Below are positions 1 to 39,750 of a DNA stretch of 39,750 nucleotides, one piece after another. The translations under genes and the position numbers were made by a program. The notes beneath the pieces are model-generated. The model was not told the origin of the DNA. It saw only the letters and a list, made by a program, of their open reading frames with translations, and did not search any database. Position 1 is the stretch's first letter, and every line of letters starts with the position of its first letter. This DNA is from a virus. The stretch is taken from the IMG/VR virus record IMGVR_UViG_3300048927_000765, positions 1 to 39,750 of that record; one strand, 5' to 3'.

Positions 1-1305
1 GTGCTCACAGACGCAAAGGTGAAGGCCGCCAGGCCGCGCGATAAGGCCTACAAACTGGCCGACGCGAATCAACTCTACCTCCACGTCTCCCCCGCAGGCG
101 GGAAACACTGGCGGATGAACTACACCTTCGGCCGGAACGCTTCGGGTAGACCCCAGCAAAAGACGTTGACGTTCGGCCCCTATCCGGCCGTGACGCTCGT
201 CGACGCACGACGCCGGCGCGATGACGCCAAAGCTATGCTGATCGAGGGCCGCGACCCGGCAACCGAGCGCAGGCTGGCCGCGCACGCGAAGGCGTCCGAA
301 TCGGGCAACACCTTCAAAGCCGTGGCGCAGGCGTGGTTCGACAAGAAGAAGGGAACGTGGGCGCCGCGCCATGCGACCAAGGTGTGGGAGAGCCTGGAGG
401 AGAACGTCTTTGGAGCCGTCGGGGCGCTTCCGATCACCGCGATTGACGCGCCGCGTCTTCTGGATCTGCTGACCGTCGTCGAGAAGCGCGGCGCCGTTGA
501 AACCGCGCACCGTCTGCGGCAGCGGATTTCGGCAGTATTCGTCTACGCCATTGCGGCTGGTATCGCGGCCTCCGATCCGGCGGCCAGCCTTGGCAAGGCA
601 CTCAGCCCCAAACCTCGCGCACGTCGCCAGCCGGCCCTTACCGACCTGGACAGCATGCGCACGATGTTGGCCGCATGCGAGGCGGAGCGGAGCCGGGCAG
701 GGACGAAACTGGCTCTGCGCCTGCTGGCGCTGACCGTCGTCCGGCCGGGCGAGCTACGTCACGCGCGGTGGCAGGAAATCGAGAGCCTCGATAGCGAAGA
801 GCCGACATGGCGAATCCCCGCAGCCCGCATGAAGGGCGATGAGGATCGCAAAGCCGAGATCGGGGGCGATCATCTCGTGCCGCTGTCAAAGCAAGCGGTC
901 GCGGTTCTGCGCGCCCTCCACCCGCTGAGCGGTAATCTCGACCTGATGTTCCCCAGCGAACGGCATCTGCACAAGCCGATTTCAGAGAACACGCTAAGGG
1001 CGATGCTCATCCGGTCGGGCTATTACCAGCAGCACGTACCGCACGGCTTTCGGGCGGCCTTCTCCACGATAATGAACGAGCGAGCGGACGCGGCTGGACG
1101 GAGCGGGGACCGCGCGATCATCGACTTGATGCTGGCGCACGTCCCCAAGGACAAGGTGGAGAGCGCCTACAATCGCGCGGCGTTTATGCCCCGCCGCCGC
1201 GAGCTTGCGCAGGAATGGGCCGACATGTTGCTGGACGGTTTTAGCGAACCTCAGTCGTTCGTCGGCCAGCCTATGCGCAGATCAGTCGGCAATCCTGCCG
1301 GTTAA
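1..1305 (+). CDS. int: Tyrosine integrase, P4/DUF4102 type
   Basis: Site-specific recombinase that inserts and excises the prophage. The N-terminus (residues 1-90, LTDAKVKAARPRDKAYKLAD onward) is the DUF4102 arm-binding domain of P4-type integrases. A core-binding region spans about 100-200 and the catalytic domain about 210-410. Visible catalytic residues are R248 (TVVRPGEL), H348 and R351 (HGFR), H380 and the nucleophile Y390 (ESAYNRA). The 434-residue length is normal for the family. The GTG start lies on base 1, so a start slightly upstream cannot be excluded and no ribosome-binding site is visible. It converges with the AlpA-like gene and the two overlap by 4 bases, which fits an integrase/excisionase unit. 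The function is secure; the attachment target is unknown. Confidence 0.95.
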   Translation: MLTDAKVKAARPRDKAYKLADANQLYLHVSPAGGKHWRMNYTFGRNASGRPQQKTLTFGPYPAVTLVDARRRRDDAKAMLIEGRDPATERRLAAHAKASESGNTFKAVAQAWFDKKKGTWAPRHATKVWESLEENVFGAVGALPITAIDAPRLLDLLTVVEKRGAVETAHRLRQRISAVFVYAIAAGIAASDPAASLGKALSPKPRARRQPALTDLDSMRTMLAACEAERSRAGTKLALRLLALTVVRPGELRHARWQEIESLDSEEPTWRIPAARMKGDEDRKAEIGGDHLVPLSKQAVAVLRALHPLSGNLDLMFPSERHLHKPISENTLRAMLIRSGYYQQHVPHGFRAAFSTIMNERADAAGRSGDRAIIDLMLAHVPKDKVESAYNRAAFMPRRRELAQEWADMLLDGFSEPQSFVGQPMRRSVGNPAG

Positions 1306-6146: not shown

Positions 6147-6956
6147 TCAGGCCTCCACCGGCTGGGCCGCGGCGAAGTCGAATGGCTCTGGCGCATTCTC
6201 GGAGCCATCGAGCCGCCCGGCGATGTACGCGACGTCGCGAAGAACCCATGGATCGGCATCCCACTGCTCATGAGACAAGATGGAGGCCTTACGGAGCAGA
6301 TCGTCGCTGGTTGGCGCGAGGGTTTGCGCCAAGCTGGTCAACTGTGATTGGTTCGATGCGCGTTCGCGATTTTGTTCGACGAGCTCGGTGAGAACCGAGA
6401 GCGCAGGGCTTTCTGCAGCAGTTTCTTGGACGGACTCCAAGGCCTCCGCGAGCAAGTTCGCCAATTCGTAATCTGCGACTGATCGCTCATAGCGACGAAC
6501 GGCCTCGTCGAAATCGAATTGCAGAAGCTCGACGATGGCTTGCAGCACCGGCGCAGCCTCGCCGTTTACCTTCGCGGCTGATTTGTAGAGCGCATGCGCT
6601 CCATTCATTGCGAGCGTGTTGTCTACGAATAGTTCGCAATCCAAAATTGGCAGGTGCAGCATTAGCTTGGCAGCGATGCCGGCTGGAGTTTCAGCCCAGT
6701 CGCCCCGAACTTCCTGTTCGGCATCGCATGCTGCCCTGTCGACGCATTGCTCGACAGCGTCATAGGCCGCGGGCTGCGATAGCTGGCTCCCGTTCACGAC
6801 AGCCTGCTGGTAGATCCAAGAACGCCACGCTCGCACCTTCTCATAGGCTGCGAGGATGTCAGCGTCGGGGCTCTCGGGGTCGAAAGCGGGGAAGGGCAGC
6901 TTGCTGACCAGATCGGGACGGGCGAGAGCTACGGCGGCAAGTTCAGGGATGGGCAT
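6147..6956 (-). CDS. Hypothetical helical protein
   Basis: 269 residues, not recognised. It begins MPIPELAAVALARPDLVSKL and is almost entirely predicted alpha-helix, with many short acidic helices (for example ELANLLAEALESVQETAAES). There is no signal peptide, membrane segment or catalytic motif. A GGAGG lies about 9 bases upstream of the ATG, in the 3' end of the 58-residue gene before it. It shares helical character and size with the 7140-7787 product, so both may be partners of one complex, but that is speculation. Confidence 0.66.
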   Translation of the reverse strand: MPIPELAAVALARPDLVSKLPFPAFDPESPDADILAAYEKVRAWRSWIYQQAVVNGSQLSQPAAYDAVEQCVDRAACDAEQEVRGDWAETPAGIAAKLMLHLPILDCELFVDNTLAMNGAHALYKSAAKVNGEAAPVLQAIVELLQFDFDEAVRRYERSVADYELANLLAEALESVQETAAESPALSVLTELVEQNRERASNQSQLTSLAQTLAPTSDDLLRKASILSHEQWDADPWVLRDVAYIAGRLDGSENAPEPFDFAAAQPVEA

Positions 6957-7969: not shown

Positions 7970-8770
7970 TCAGATGCCAAAGCACTCAGACCATGGGATA
8001 ACTCTGTGAACGCGAGCAATGCGGTCCACTGGGACGCTAAACCTTAGGTCGGGCTTGTACTGCTCCAACTCCAAATGGCTCGCTGTGCGTTTTACGAGCG
8101 TTTTAATGAGGCCGGTAACGATCTCCCCGCACTCGCTATCTCCCACGAGTTGCACAACGACGTCATCGCCAATGGACGGCGGGCGCTTGGGGTCGACGAA
8201 CACCGGTTCGCCGGGGCGGAAGCGCGGGCTCATTGATTCTCCAGATACAAACACGACGTAGACACTTCTGTCAGCCGGAATGCCCGGAGGGCGACGGACG
8301 TGTGCCACGACATCGTTCATTTGGAACACGGTCATTTCCACCGGCTCGGTTCCAACTCCGTTTGAATCAAACTCGATATCAGCGGCTAAAGCGCTAGCGT
8401 AGGCTGGAACGTCTTTAGGATGGCCTCTCATTGTCGGAGGGGTGTGCGCCTCTAGAACTTGCGGCTCGATACCCACAGCCTTGGCATTTTCGAAGCTCTC
8501 GCCAGCCTCATTCCATCTTCTGACGAAATCTGTATCGACGCCCTGAAGTGCCCAGATCTCTTCTGCGGTAATCGGAGGTTCGCCGCGGCCCACCAAAGCG
8601 ACGCGCAGCTTCAGGCCTATCTTTGGCTTGATGTGCGTGTCGTAGTCGGGATTGAAATAAGCCTGGATGCTTGATGGACCGCGCAGGTTCATAGCCCTCG
8701 CGAGTTCTGCGAGCGTCATCCCGGAGCGATGACGTAAAGCAATGAGCTTCGATCCAACAGTTTCGGTCAC
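7970..8770 (-). CDS. CI-like phage repressor (HTH plus S24 peptidase)
   Basis: 266 residues from GTG at 8770, chosen because AAGGA lies 9 bases upstream; a longer GTG frame to 8809 runs into the operator region. The N-terminal helix-turn-helix spans about residues 4-55 (ALRHRSGMTLAELARAMNLR, then PSSIQAYFN). The C-terminal half is a LexA/S24-type domain with the nucleophile Ser in VSGESMSPRFRPGE (Ser179 in this numbering) and downstream lysines (GLIKTLVKR). It should maintain lysogeny and be inactivated by RecA-stimulated self-cleavage. The usual Ala-Gly cleavage pair is not obvious (ASALAADIEF instead), so induction may follow another route. Operators flank the gene on both sides. Confidence 0.88.
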   Translation of the reverse strand: MTETVGSKLIALRHRSGMTLAELARAMNLRGPSSIQAYFNPDYDTHIKPKIGLKLRVALVGRGEPPITAEEIWALQGVDTDFVRRWNEAGESFENAKAVGIEPQVLEAHTPPTMRGHPKDVPAYASALAADIEFDSNGVGTEPVEMTVFQMNDVVAHVRRPPGIPADRSVYVVFVSGESMSPRFRPGEPVFVDPKRPPSIGDDVVVQLVGDSECGEIVTGLIKTLVKRTASHLELEQYKPDLRFSVPVDRIARVHRVIPWSECFGI

Positions 8771-8803
8771 GTTCAAAAATCCTTGTTGAGTTACGTTTCT
8801 ACG

Positions 8804-8832
8804 TTGCACGCGTTACGTTTTAAACGTAAATA
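8804..8832 (+). promoter_or_regulatory. Rightward early promoter with overlapping operator (predicted PR/OR)
   Basis: A perfect 17-bp palindrome TTACGTTTTAAACGTAA lies at 8813-8829 between the repressor and the Cro-like gene. A more degenerate copy is visible on the minus strand at about 8800-8816 (TAACGCGTGCAACGTAG). A candidate promoter has TTGCAC (8804-8809), 17 bases, then TAAATA (8827-8832), so the operator covers its spacer. If correct, transcription would start within a few bases of the Cro-like ATG. The promoter is tentative; the palindrome is certain. Confidence 0.5.
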
Positions 8833-12442: not shown

Positions 12443-13115
12443 GAACGAGACCATCGCCGCCATGGCAGCGCAGACGAAAAGCCGCGCCAGCCGACCTTCC
12501 ATCCCAAAGGCGGCGAAAGTGGATCCTTTCGCGCCGACCCCTGAGCAACGCGAGCATGCGGTCTATGTCGAGCAGGACATCGTGGACGTGAAGACGAAAG
12601 GCCGCGTGACCATCGGCAAAGCCTTTCGCAAGCTGCCGCGCTTCGAGACGATGGAAGGCATTGGCACTGAGCAGCTCAAGGCGCTGCGTTGCTACCGCGC
12701 GGCGTTCGACGCCAGCGAGATGTCTGAGACCAAGTGCGCCCTAGACGTGCGGCCGCGCGGTGCGGCTGGCTCACACGGCGCGATCTCTGCCATCGAGGCA
12801 CGCGCATTCGGCGCGAGCACTTTGCGCGGGATCGAGTGTCAGCTGGGCGCCCTGGTACACACGCTGCGCGACGTGGCCTTGATGGATCTGACGTTCTCCG
12901 AGGCCGCAATGAAGCGGTTCGGCAGCCGCGAAGTCGACTGGATCGACATCGGCAAGGGCAAGCGTAAGCCGCGCTCTATCGTCAAGCTGGTCCCAAAGTC
13001 TGGCGCTCACCGGCAAATCATCAGAGACGAGTTCTTCACCGGCCTTCGGTTGCTGGCCGAGGCTGTCGGCCCTTACCTATCCCGGGCGGGGATCAGATCA
13101 GATCATCAACCGTAA
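12435..13115 (+). CDS. Hypothetical protein, last gene of the rightward early operon
   Basis: 226 residues from the ATG at 12435, which overlaps the upstream stop. The N-terminal ~50 residues are basic and low-complexity (KNETIAAMAAQTKSRASRPS). The rest is a folded, helical domain with KALRCYRAAFDASEMSETK, then a Gly/Ala-rich turn, then LRDVALMDLTFSEAAMKRFG. It occupies the place where lambdoid phages keep a late-gene regulator (Q), and the basic helical character would fit a nucleic-acid-binding regulator. I see no homology that proves this. Its 3' end overlaps the convergent antitoxin gene by 23 bases. Confidence 0.65.
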   Translation: MPKNETIAAMAAQTKSRASRPSIPKAAKVDPFAPTPEQREHAVYVEQDIVDVKTKGRVTIGKAFRKLPRFETMEGIGTEQLKALRCYRAAFDASEMSETKCALDVRPRGAAGSHGAISAIEARAFGASTLRGIECQLGALVHTLRDVALMDLTFSEAAMKRFGSREVDWIDIGKGKRKPRSIVKLVPKSGAHRQIIRDEFFTGLRLLAEAVGPYLSRAGIRSDHQP

Positions 13116-13434
13116 TGCCCAGATGTTCGGCCAGGCTCTTGAGGGTCTGGACCGAACCGCCGCGTTTGCCGCCTTCGATCTGTGCGATCTGAGCGCGACT
13201 CACGCCAGCTGCTTCCGATAGCGCAAGCTGCGTCAGGCCGCGATATTCACGCCAGACCCGCAGAGGGCTTTCGCCCGCGAGGATGCGATTGACCAGCTCG
13301 GCCGGAACGTATTCGTCATCGCCTCGCTCGACGGCAGCCTTCACGCGCTCGGAAGCACGGATGTCCGCGAGGTCTTCCGCTGCCTCCTGGAGCGCTTGGT
13401 ACTCTTCGATCGGTATCGTAACCATCTCACCCAT
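13093..13434 (-). CDS. XRE-family antitoxin (HigA/RelB-type partner)
   Basis: 113 residues from the ATG at 13434, preferred because GGAGG lies 5 bases upstream; in-frame ATGs at 13449, 13446 and 13425 are alternatives. The N-terminal part (TIPIEEYQALQEAAEDLADI) is of the Phd/RHH-like dimer type seen in these antitoxins. The C-terminal part is a clear helix-turn-helix: YRGLTQLALSEAAGVSRAQI then AQIEGGKRGGS and LKSLAEHLGITVDDLI. It lies directly after the toxin gene. It should neutralise the toxin and repress the pair. It is antisense to the phage early and late operons, as expected for a lysogen-expressed cargo unit. Confidence 0.88.
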   Translation of the reverse strand: MGEMVTIPIEEYQALQEAAEDLADIRASERVKAAVERGDDEYVPAELVNRILAGESPLRVWREYRGLTQLALSEAAGVSRAQIAQIEGGKRGGSVQTLKSLAEHLGITVDDLI

Positions 13435-13445
13435 GTGAGCCTCCA

Positions 13446-13694
13446 TCATTCATAGATGCTGCCGCGAGGGCCAATTTTCGTCACGGTCAGCACGACGCCA
13501 TCGTTCATGATGACCCGCCAATCGCCAACCCGAAGGCGGATGTCGTCGCTGCCCTTGAGGGCCTTGATGTTGTTCGCCTGCGAAGCCGGATCTGCAGCGT
13601 ATGCCTCGACCTTCGAGACGATGCGGGCCGACGTATTGGCGGGCATCGAGCGGAGCGTCTTGAGAGCTGAGCGGGCGTAACGGATCGGCTTCAT
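13446..13694 (-). CDS. RelE/HigB-like toxin
   Basis: 82 residues. The fold pattern of RelE/ParE toxins is visible: an N-terminal helix pair (ARSALKTLRSMPANTSARIV), then ANNIKALKGSDDIRLRVGDW, RVIMNDGVVLTVTKIGPRGS and a C-terminal Tyr-Glu. Such toxins are usually ribosome-dependent mRNA interferases, or gyrase poisons for ParE. The conserved GSDDIRLRVGDWRV core points to the RelE branch. The ATG at 13694 has no good ribosome site. A GTG at 13700, two codons upstream, has GGAGAG at 8 bases and could be the true start. The toxin precedes the antitoxin, as in HigBA. Confidence 0.85.
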   Translation of the reverse strand: MKPIRYARSALKTLRSMPANTSARIVSKVEAYAADPASQANNIKALKGSDDIRLRVGDWRVIMNDGVVLTVTKIGPRGSIYE

Positions 13695-13701
13695 GACCAC
13701 A

Positions 13702-13745
13702 GATGTAACTCTCCGTAACATCAGTGTCAAAGGAAATGTTACGGA
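13702..13745 (-). promoter_or_regulatory. Toxin-antitoxin promoter with inverted-repeat operator
   Basis: A perfect 10-bp inverted repeat, TCCGTAACAT (13712-13721) and ATGTTACGGA (13736-13745), flanks a perfect -35 TTGACA (complement of 13725-13730). At 17 bases is a -10-like TACATC (complement of 13702-13707). An operator wrapped around the -35 is what an autoregulating HTH antitoxin needs. Transcripts would begin close to the toxin start, with almost no leader. Confidence 0.65.
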
Positions 13746-13813
13746 TAGTGACATACAAATAGCTGTTGCGCTGGGCACGGAAACGAGGCAAATAGATACG
13801 GTACAGAATACTT

Positions 13814-13842
13814 GCGCCCGCAGCCGAAAGGTGAGCGGGCGC
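13814..13842. repeat. GC-rich inverted repeat between toxin and 13956 gene
   Basis: GCGCCCGC (13814-13821) and GCGGGCGC (13835-13842) form a perfect 8-bp stem with a 13-base loop. No U-run follows on either strand, so a classical terminator is not supported. The surrounding 13746-13955 holds no convincing gene. It could separate the toxin-antitoxin promoter from the upstream leftward gene. Confidence 0.4.
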
Positions 13843-13955
13843 TGTTGCATCTGTCATGTGGTTTTGGTGAGCTTGGCAGAAGGCCACTCTTCACCTGTTG
13901 CCTGGCTGATGTCGCACTCAGGGCATGAGATTGAAGCCATTCAGCCAAGAAGTGC

Positions 13956-38994: not shown

Positions 38995-39258
38995 TCAGTA
39001 GCTCGACCAGTCCAACTCGGCATCGTCGACCGCGTCGAACATCTCCGGGTCGGCTCCGGTATCCCCAAGACGTTTGCGCACTGCATCCGGACCGCCATCT
39101 TTCGGAAAGCTGCGGTCTGACTTGGCTATTGTGGCCAGCTGCCCGACGAAGCCACCCCGGTCCGCTTGCTGCAAAAGCCATCTCCCGAATGGGATAGCCG
39201 CACTTGCGGCGACGGGCGCGGCACCGTCGGTCCAGCTGTGGCTCGAAAGATCACTCAT
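38995..39258 (-). CDS. YozE SAM-like domain protein
   Basis: 87 residues. The region IPFGRWLLQQADRGGFVGQL followed by AKSDRSFPKDGGPDAVRKRL and FDAVDDAELDWSSY matches the small YozE/SAM-like helical fold common in phages and prophages. The N-terminal 20 residues are low-complexity. AGGA lies 8 bases upstream of the ATG at 39258. It is transcribed away from the HIRAN gene. The 72-base gap between the two starts contains the LexA box, so it could be under the same SOS control. The function of YozE-type proteins is not established. Confidence 0.78.
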   Translation of the reverse strand: MSDLSSHSWTDGAAPVAASAAIPFGRWLLQQADRGGFVGQLATIAKSDRSFPKDGGPDAVRKRLGDTGADPEMFDAVDDAELDWSSY

Positions 39259-39301
39259 GAGAAAATTCCTCTATGCGAATCGACGCTGCTCAATCTAGTT
39301 T

Positions 39302-39316
39302 GTTCTCCTAATGTTC
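39302..39316 (+). promoter_or_regulatory. Alphaproteobacterial LexA (SOS) box
   Basis: GTTC-TCCTAAT-GTTC, an exact GTTC-N7-GTTC direct repeat, the known LexA-binding motif of most alphaproteobacteria. It lies 14 bases before the HIRAN gene ATG and 43 bases from the divergent YozE gene start. This predicts LexA repression and induction by DNA damage. Confidence 0.75.
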
Positions 39317-39330
39317 TCAAGGGAGCGACG

Positions 39331-39750
39331 ATGGGTATGTGCGACTTCAGCTTGCCGGCAGTCGGTGAGCGGCATGAGAATGAGGATGGGTCCAGCCGCC
39401 AGGAAGAGCTGGCGCGGTGCATTCCCGGCGAGACAGTTCGTTTGGTGCGGGAGCCAGAGAACCCGCACGACCGGATGGCCGTTGCGGTGTTCAGTTGCCG
39501 AGGAGTGAAGGTAGGTTACCTCAAGCGCGATCGTGCGGTCTGGATCGGCAGTAAGATCGATCGAGGCTACGACGTCAGGGCTATCGTGGAGCGAGTGAAG
39601 GGCGCCACTCTGTCGGGCGCGGTGCTTGGCCTGATTATGAGGGTGAATATGGAGGGCGAGGATCCGGAGCTTCCGGAAGAAGCTGCCCGGACGGCCAGCG
39701 CGAGCAATCAACGAGTAAAAAAATATTCCATGGTAAAATCCATGGCATGA
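39331..39750 (+). CDS. Standalone HIRAN-domain protein
   Basis: 139 residues from the ATG at 39331, with GGGAG 6 bases upstream; the stop ends the window. The HIRAN core is clear: IPGETVRLVREPENPHDRMA, then VAVFSCRGVKVGYLKRDRAV and a basic strand DVRAIVERVKGATLSGAVLG. HIRAN domains (HLTF/Rad5, bacterial standalone forms) bind 3' DNA ends and stalled-fork structures. The N-terminus (MGMCDFSLPAVGERHENEDG) and the basic tail after the domain have no recognised partner domain. With a LexA box in front it is probably a DNA-damage-induced prophage gene that acts on damaged or replicating DNA. Confidence 0.85.
   Translation: MGMCDFSLPAVGERHENEDGSSRQEELARCIPGETVRLVREPENPHDRMAVAVFSCRGVKVGYLKRDRAVWIGSKIDRGYDVRAIVERVKGATLSGAVLGLIMRVNMEGEDPELPEEAARTASASNQRVKKYSMVKSMA

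Follow-up and report, generated by a model that had tools for sequence, protein, structure and literature searches.

The HIRAN gene at the right end of the stretch of DNA analysed here (a virus record of 39,750 nt, referred to below as the window) shares a LexA (SOS) box with a divergent gene coding for a YozE/UPF0346-like protein. Our main reading, to which we assign a probability of roughly 0.6, is that the two genes form a LexA-repressed divergent pair beside the phage attachment site, that this pair is derepressed by DNA damage, and that its HIRAN product acts on 3' DNA ends. We consider SOS control of the pair, with LexA binding and induction as its predicted components, to be highly likely in itself, on the basis of the box sequence, its identity with the motif of the host regulon, its conservation and the geometry of the promoter. 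The box would link the HIRAN and YozE/UPF0346 families to the DNA-damage response and place them in a concrete, readily testable setting; dozens of alphaproteobacterial temperate phages keep it for these two families.

The LexA box lies in a gap shared by the HIRAN and YozE-like genes

The box, GTTCTCCTAATGTTC, has the form GTTC-N7-GTTC and is located at positions 39302-39316 (plus strand). It ends 14 nt before the ATG (39331) of a gene encoding a standalone HIRAN-domain protein of 139 amino acids (39331-39750, plus strand). The initial annotation had reported both this sequence and its distance from the short HIRAN gene, and we confirmed the two. The start codon itself is set by relatives which carry an in-frame stop just 5' of the ATG, and a putative Shine-Dalgarno sequence, AGGGAG, is found at 39320-39325. 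The GTTC-N7-GTTC form occurs twice in the window, against 1.25 matches expected by chance, and this count is not significant by itself. The extended form of the box, TGTTC-N6-TGTTCT, has only a single match in the window, at 39301-39317, and was obtained in none of 100 shuffled sequences. The shuffles, the conservation in relatives and the random-window background given below rule out a chance match at this position. The other occurrence of the shorter form, at 6351-6365, falls in the coding frame of an ORF (6147-6956) and is probably due to chance.

The box is placed in a 72-bp gap which the HIRAN gene has in common with the divergent YozE-like gene (38995-39258, minus strand; 87 amino acids). 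A promoter scan of the region 39230-39360 revealed one consensus promoter, which is sigma-70-like and faces the YozE-like gene (39292-39320, minus strand; TTGAGA at 39320-39315, a spacer of 17 nt, TAGATT at 39297-39292), and the LexA box fills its -35/-10 spacer. In 22 of the 34 loci scanned, the promoter with the best score overlaps the box. No convincing consensus promoter directed toward HIRAN was found, either in this region of the window or in the 34 loci. Nevertheless, since the upstream region of HIRAN is limited to these 72 bp, with the box ending so close to its start, bound LexA should affect HIRAN too.

A GANTC site (GAATC, 39277-39281, plus strand) is also present in the YozE-like gene's 5' leader. 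GANTC is the methylation motif of CcrM. Of 35 non-redundant loci (the window and loci from the L170-L223 range), 33 have such a site in the interval from the box to the YozE start, compared with 5% per random 40 nt, and this conservation well over background suggests that the YozE-like gene may receive CcrM/GcrA input as well.

The same motif precedes SOS genes in a host-type genome

The window is a virus record, and its kin were drawn from the genomes of relatives; the host motifs are those of Novosphingobium panipatense. The extended motif has seven matches in the 5.7 Mb of this genome, and these include sites at two imuA-like genes, a radical-SAM repair gene and the HIRAN gene. The shorter GTTC-N7-GTTC form was found upstream of recA, uvrA and dinB, whose identities were assigned from protein sequences. 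Alphaproteobacterial LexA is stated to bind GTTC-N7-GTTC in a published study (PMC7987155). Around the gene for the phage's own CI-like repressor (7970-8809, minus strand; PF00717, E 3e-07; phrog_4, transcriptional repressor) there are ACGTT-type repeats and no GTTC-N7-GTTC. Because the motif is common to repair genes of the host type, agrees with the published LexA motif and differs from the repeats at the phage repressor, it is very probably the host SOS box. The pair would resemble the alphaproteobacterial LexA regulon in carrying the identical motif within a promoter, while differing from it in that the targets are phage accessory genes, which the papers found do not list among the members of the regulon.

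The box is conserved in related phages and genomes

The initial annotation held that absence of the box from close relatives would speak against SOS control. Each of the 8 further independent close relatives in the first collected set has kept it, at 29-35 nt upstream of the HIRAN start, and it is present in 14 of the 16 viral loci of the first HIRAN clade (L088-L103). In two loci of this clade, L096 and L103, the box precedes HIRAN with no YozE gene alongside. A second clade, with HIRAN proteins 30-36% identical to that of the window, contributed seven further boxed loci (L112, L115-L118, L120, L125), all of them devoid of a YozE gene. The full reading of second-clade loci covered two, L112 (3335-4135, minus strand) and L118 (3344-4141, minus strand). 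Both have HIRAN convergent with a gene for an S24 repressor, and upstream of HIRAN there are GTGTG-N6-CACA-like palindromes in addition to the LexA box. HIRAN and the predicted SOS box go together in two distinct phage contexts. This occurrence among near relatives as well as in a distant clade, together with the motif at host recA, uvrA, dinB and imuA-like genes, supports the SOS control of HIRAN that had been proposed initially from the window alone. Homologues on Sphingobium and Sphingomonas plasmids (40-47% identity) mostly lack the box (L028-L037) and were ruled out as its carriers; one of them, L038, has it. The HIRAN gene on Sphingobium sp. TKS plasmid pTK4 (L035), which is without a strict box, adjoins two genes for SOS response-associated peptidases.

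The YozE-like gene was present in 58 viral loci. Where usable upstream sequence existed, the box was found in 46 of 53, counting either orientation, against a background of 1.2% of random 100-nt windows from the same loci; 36 of these 46 boxed loci have no HIRAN alongside. The box begins 47-61 nt before the inferred YozE-like start in 38 of 47 loci, a spread that is somewhat flattered by our choice of the start as the codon nearest 57 bases from the box. These frequencies, with most boxed loci lacking HIRAN, and the promoter facing YozE argue for a divergent SOS-controlled pair and not for the HIRAN-only unit driven by the box that was first described, as the gap, the box and the sole consensus promoter all involve the YozE-like gene. 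By these sequence criteria the YozE-like gene is the better-documented predicted LexA target of the pair.

As an independent sample, we used 200 genomes from the same family. The YozE-like gene is present in 16 of them, in several as multiple copies. The box was present in all 6 HIRAN-YozE pairs from genome assemblies and in about half of the YozE-like copies without HIRAN, which weakens the notion of the YozE-like gene as a universal SOS target. At the unboxed copies that were checked, no convincing near-match box was seen. The box is not fixed at every YozE-like gene, yet it occurs in every HIRAN-YozE pair seen. Some genomes carry two YozE-like genes in tandem, separated by a few hundred bases (G034 C30, L232; G051 C18, L227; G031 C1, L254).

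Properties of the two proteins

The HIRAN assignment was tested by both profile and structure. The window protein matches PF08797 with an E-value of 9.6e-13 (48.2 bits, cut-off 24.7), and its predicted structure (pLDDT 85.9) contains the HIRAN beta-barrel fold. A Foldseek search with this model matched the HIRAN domain of HLTF (4s0n, E 6.9e-07), and each of the 17 PDB matches at E <=0.001 was either HLTF HIRAN or lp_0118. By sequence and predicted structure, the fold and the core motif EP-N-x-x-D are alike in HLTF/Rad5, from which the phage protein differs in being standalone, without a helicase or a RING domain. The Asn and Asp residues of the HLTF-like NP(Y/H)D motif, N44 and D47, are invariant across 23 HIRAN proteins, while the stacking residue Tyr93 of HLTF corresponds to His46 and Tyr72 of HLTF is not aligned. 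In HLTF, the HIRAN domain binds single-stranded DNA at its 3' end (PMC4666394). Given the predicted fold and the two invariant residues of the core motif, binding of DNA ends or forks during induction is the most likely role of the window protein, although we propose it tentatively. The phage- or host-protecting function suggested in the initial annotation likewise derives from the domain and is a tentative reading.

HIRAN proteins of other temperate phages include DLP4 gp19 (PMC6469090) and ThaL of a pneumococcal prophage (PMC12637031). ThaL is also a part of a lysogeny module and, unlike the window protein, it is transmembrane (PMC12637031). Neither a LexA box nor a YozE-like partner is mentioned in the available portions of the two reports (PMC6469090, PMC12637031).

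For the YozE-like protein, PF06855 gave 18.4 bits in the window, which is under the Pfam cut-off of 25. The same profile matched 30 of its 31 relatives at E <=0.1, with 5.6e-07 as the best value. The predicted four-helix fold agrees with UPF0346 protein 2o6k from S. aureus (VIA Z 8.3, rmsd 1.9, 65 residues aligned), the best VIA row from another kind of protein reaching Z 3.4, and the sequence motif F..WLL...D..FP is shared with the YozE/UPF0346 family (2o6k, 2fj6). The solved YozE proteins come from Bacillus and Staphylococcus, whereas the one described here is phage-borne and carries DDAE-DW as a C-terminal motif, and its gene has an SOS box. In the literature, we found no function for the YozE family. 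Weak matches of the model to integrase domains (Z about 3) also appear in the VIA list.

The pair adjoins the attachment site of a temperate phage

The window represents a temperate HK97-like phage of Novosphingobium-type hosts (Sphingomonadaceae). It carries DnaB, terminase, portal and capsid genes, a transglycosylase-like gene, a holin gene and a separate gene for an Ant-type antirepressor. No cleavage site was identified in the CI-like repressor, in which an S24 peptidase domain is present. A tyrosine integrase (1-1305, plus strand; PF00589, PF13356, PF22022) opens the window and HIRAN is its last gene, so these two lie at opposite prophage ends. A related prophage in N. panipatense (L001, genome G001) is integrated in tRNA-Ser(GGA). 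There, a 15-bp core, CCTCCCGCTCCGCCA, is located at the tRNA end and is repeated 36 bases past the HIRAN stop; the integrase occupies the other end. This arrangement, which confirms the initial placement of HIRAN at a prophage end, indicates that HIRAN adjoins attR in the prophage and attP plus the integrase gene in the circular form. The latter order can be seen directly in one locus (L023), where the integrase gene immediately follows HIRAN.

CCATGG(T/C)A-like words are repeated in the 3' end of the HIRAN gene (39690-39750) and beside the left attachment site (L001, 6380-6500). They may be arm sites of the integrase, which would explain the variable C-terminus of HIRAN. Elsewhere in the window, overlapping small genes at 13093-13850 (minus strand) resemble, by eye only, an HTH antitoxin and a RelE-type toxin.

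Proposed mechanism and rival explanations

We propose that in the lysogen host LexA would be bound to the box at 39302-39316 and would keep both genes off, as it would then occupy the -35/-10 spacer of the YozE-like promoter and lie within 30 nt of the HIRAN start. DNA damage would remove LexA, and both small proteins would be made while the prophage induces. Judging by its modelled fold, HIRAN would then most likely bind 3' DNA ends or stalled forks, which should be abundant at induction, and could protect or channel the bound ends for excision and replication of the phage. The helical YozE-like protein may act in the same period, possibly as a partner of HIRAN or on the host response, again judging by its fold.

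The main rival to this mechanism is an SOS-triggered induction switch, in which the YozE-like protein disables the phage repressor in the manner of Tum (phage 186) or GftA (Gifsy) and HIRAN is accessory. Small LexA-controlled prophage antirepressors are indeed established, namely GfoA/GftA of Gifsy, Tum of 186 and AntC of N15 (PMC3121763); the YozE-like protein is of comparable size, and no other SOS target found here is conserved as widely, and the convergence of second-clade HIRAN on an S24 repressor gene takes place in an operator-rich region. However, the repressor of the window phage may be inactivated directly via RecA through its S24 domain, the phage already has its Ant-type antirepressor, and family scans revealed no similarity of the YozE-like protein to known antirepressor families, and we regard the switch as rather unlikely. 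The box might also serve the YozE-like gene alone, with HIRAN being a mere neighbour across the gap, constitutive or under another signal. The exclusive YozE-facing orientation of the consensus promoter and the majority of boxed YozE loci devoid of HIRAN would fit such an arrangement, but the boxes before HIRAN genes with no adjacent YozE gene (the second clade, L096 and L103) and the shortness of the HIRAN upstream region do not, and we give it a low likelihood.

Still less probable, in our view, is a module for lysogenic conversion or superinfection exclusion whose expression is raised under SOS. A match links HIRAN to the C-terminal part of PDC-M03B, a candidate defence family; HIRAN genes have been reported alongside HipA and in the vicinity of defence genes (PMC11706625), and accessory genes are typically located beside attR. 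Yet the PDC-M03B models are about 230-255 amino acids long and the match covers their HIRAN part only, neither a toxin nor a nuclease was seen as a neighbouring partner of the HIRAN gene of the window, and SOS control fits induction better than a standing defence. As S24-domain phage repressors are relatives of LexA, the box could in principle be bound by the phage's own repressor, as its operator, instead of by LexA. This is extremely improbable, as the box equals the motif of host recA, uvrA, dinB and imuA, and the differing repeats in the repressor region led us to reject it.

Most known cases of prophage genes under LexA are enterobacterial antirepressors or come from a few other phages. 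The pair described here would share with GfoA/GftA, Tum and AntC the nature of small prophage genes placed behind a host LexA box and derepressed by DNA damage (PMC3121763), as far as can be predicted from its sequence. It differs from them in that HIRAN and YozE-like proteins are not known antirepressors, that the genes form a divergent pair, that the box is of the alphaproteobacterial type, and that the repressor of the phage carries an S24 domain. The initial annotation regarded the SOS-HIRAN unit as one without a described counterpart. This stands insofar as we found no report tying HIRAN or YozE proteins to LexA, whereas LexA-controlled prophage genes as such are an established kind. Our literature search for HIRAN with LexA, YozE with SOS, or Sphingomonas SOS boxes returned nothing relevant; in the literature searched, neither HIRAN nor YozE/UPF0346 had previously been tied to SOS, a connection which is well supported here. 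It is conceivable, though we advance it with reserve, that YozE-family and HIRAN proteins under LexA, possibly gated by CcrM, constitute an undescribed and widespread SOS-gated module of sphingomonad phages that favours phage over host DNA at broken ends or forks. If true, this module would give the first function for the YozE family and the first SOS-regulated HIRAN found.

Small genes behind an SOS box, whose products have a PRS-like stretch in common, were also observed in N. panipatense (L043, G001 C35) and in L177. In the latter, the gene is divergent from a YozE-like gene and may represent an alternative partner to HIRAN.
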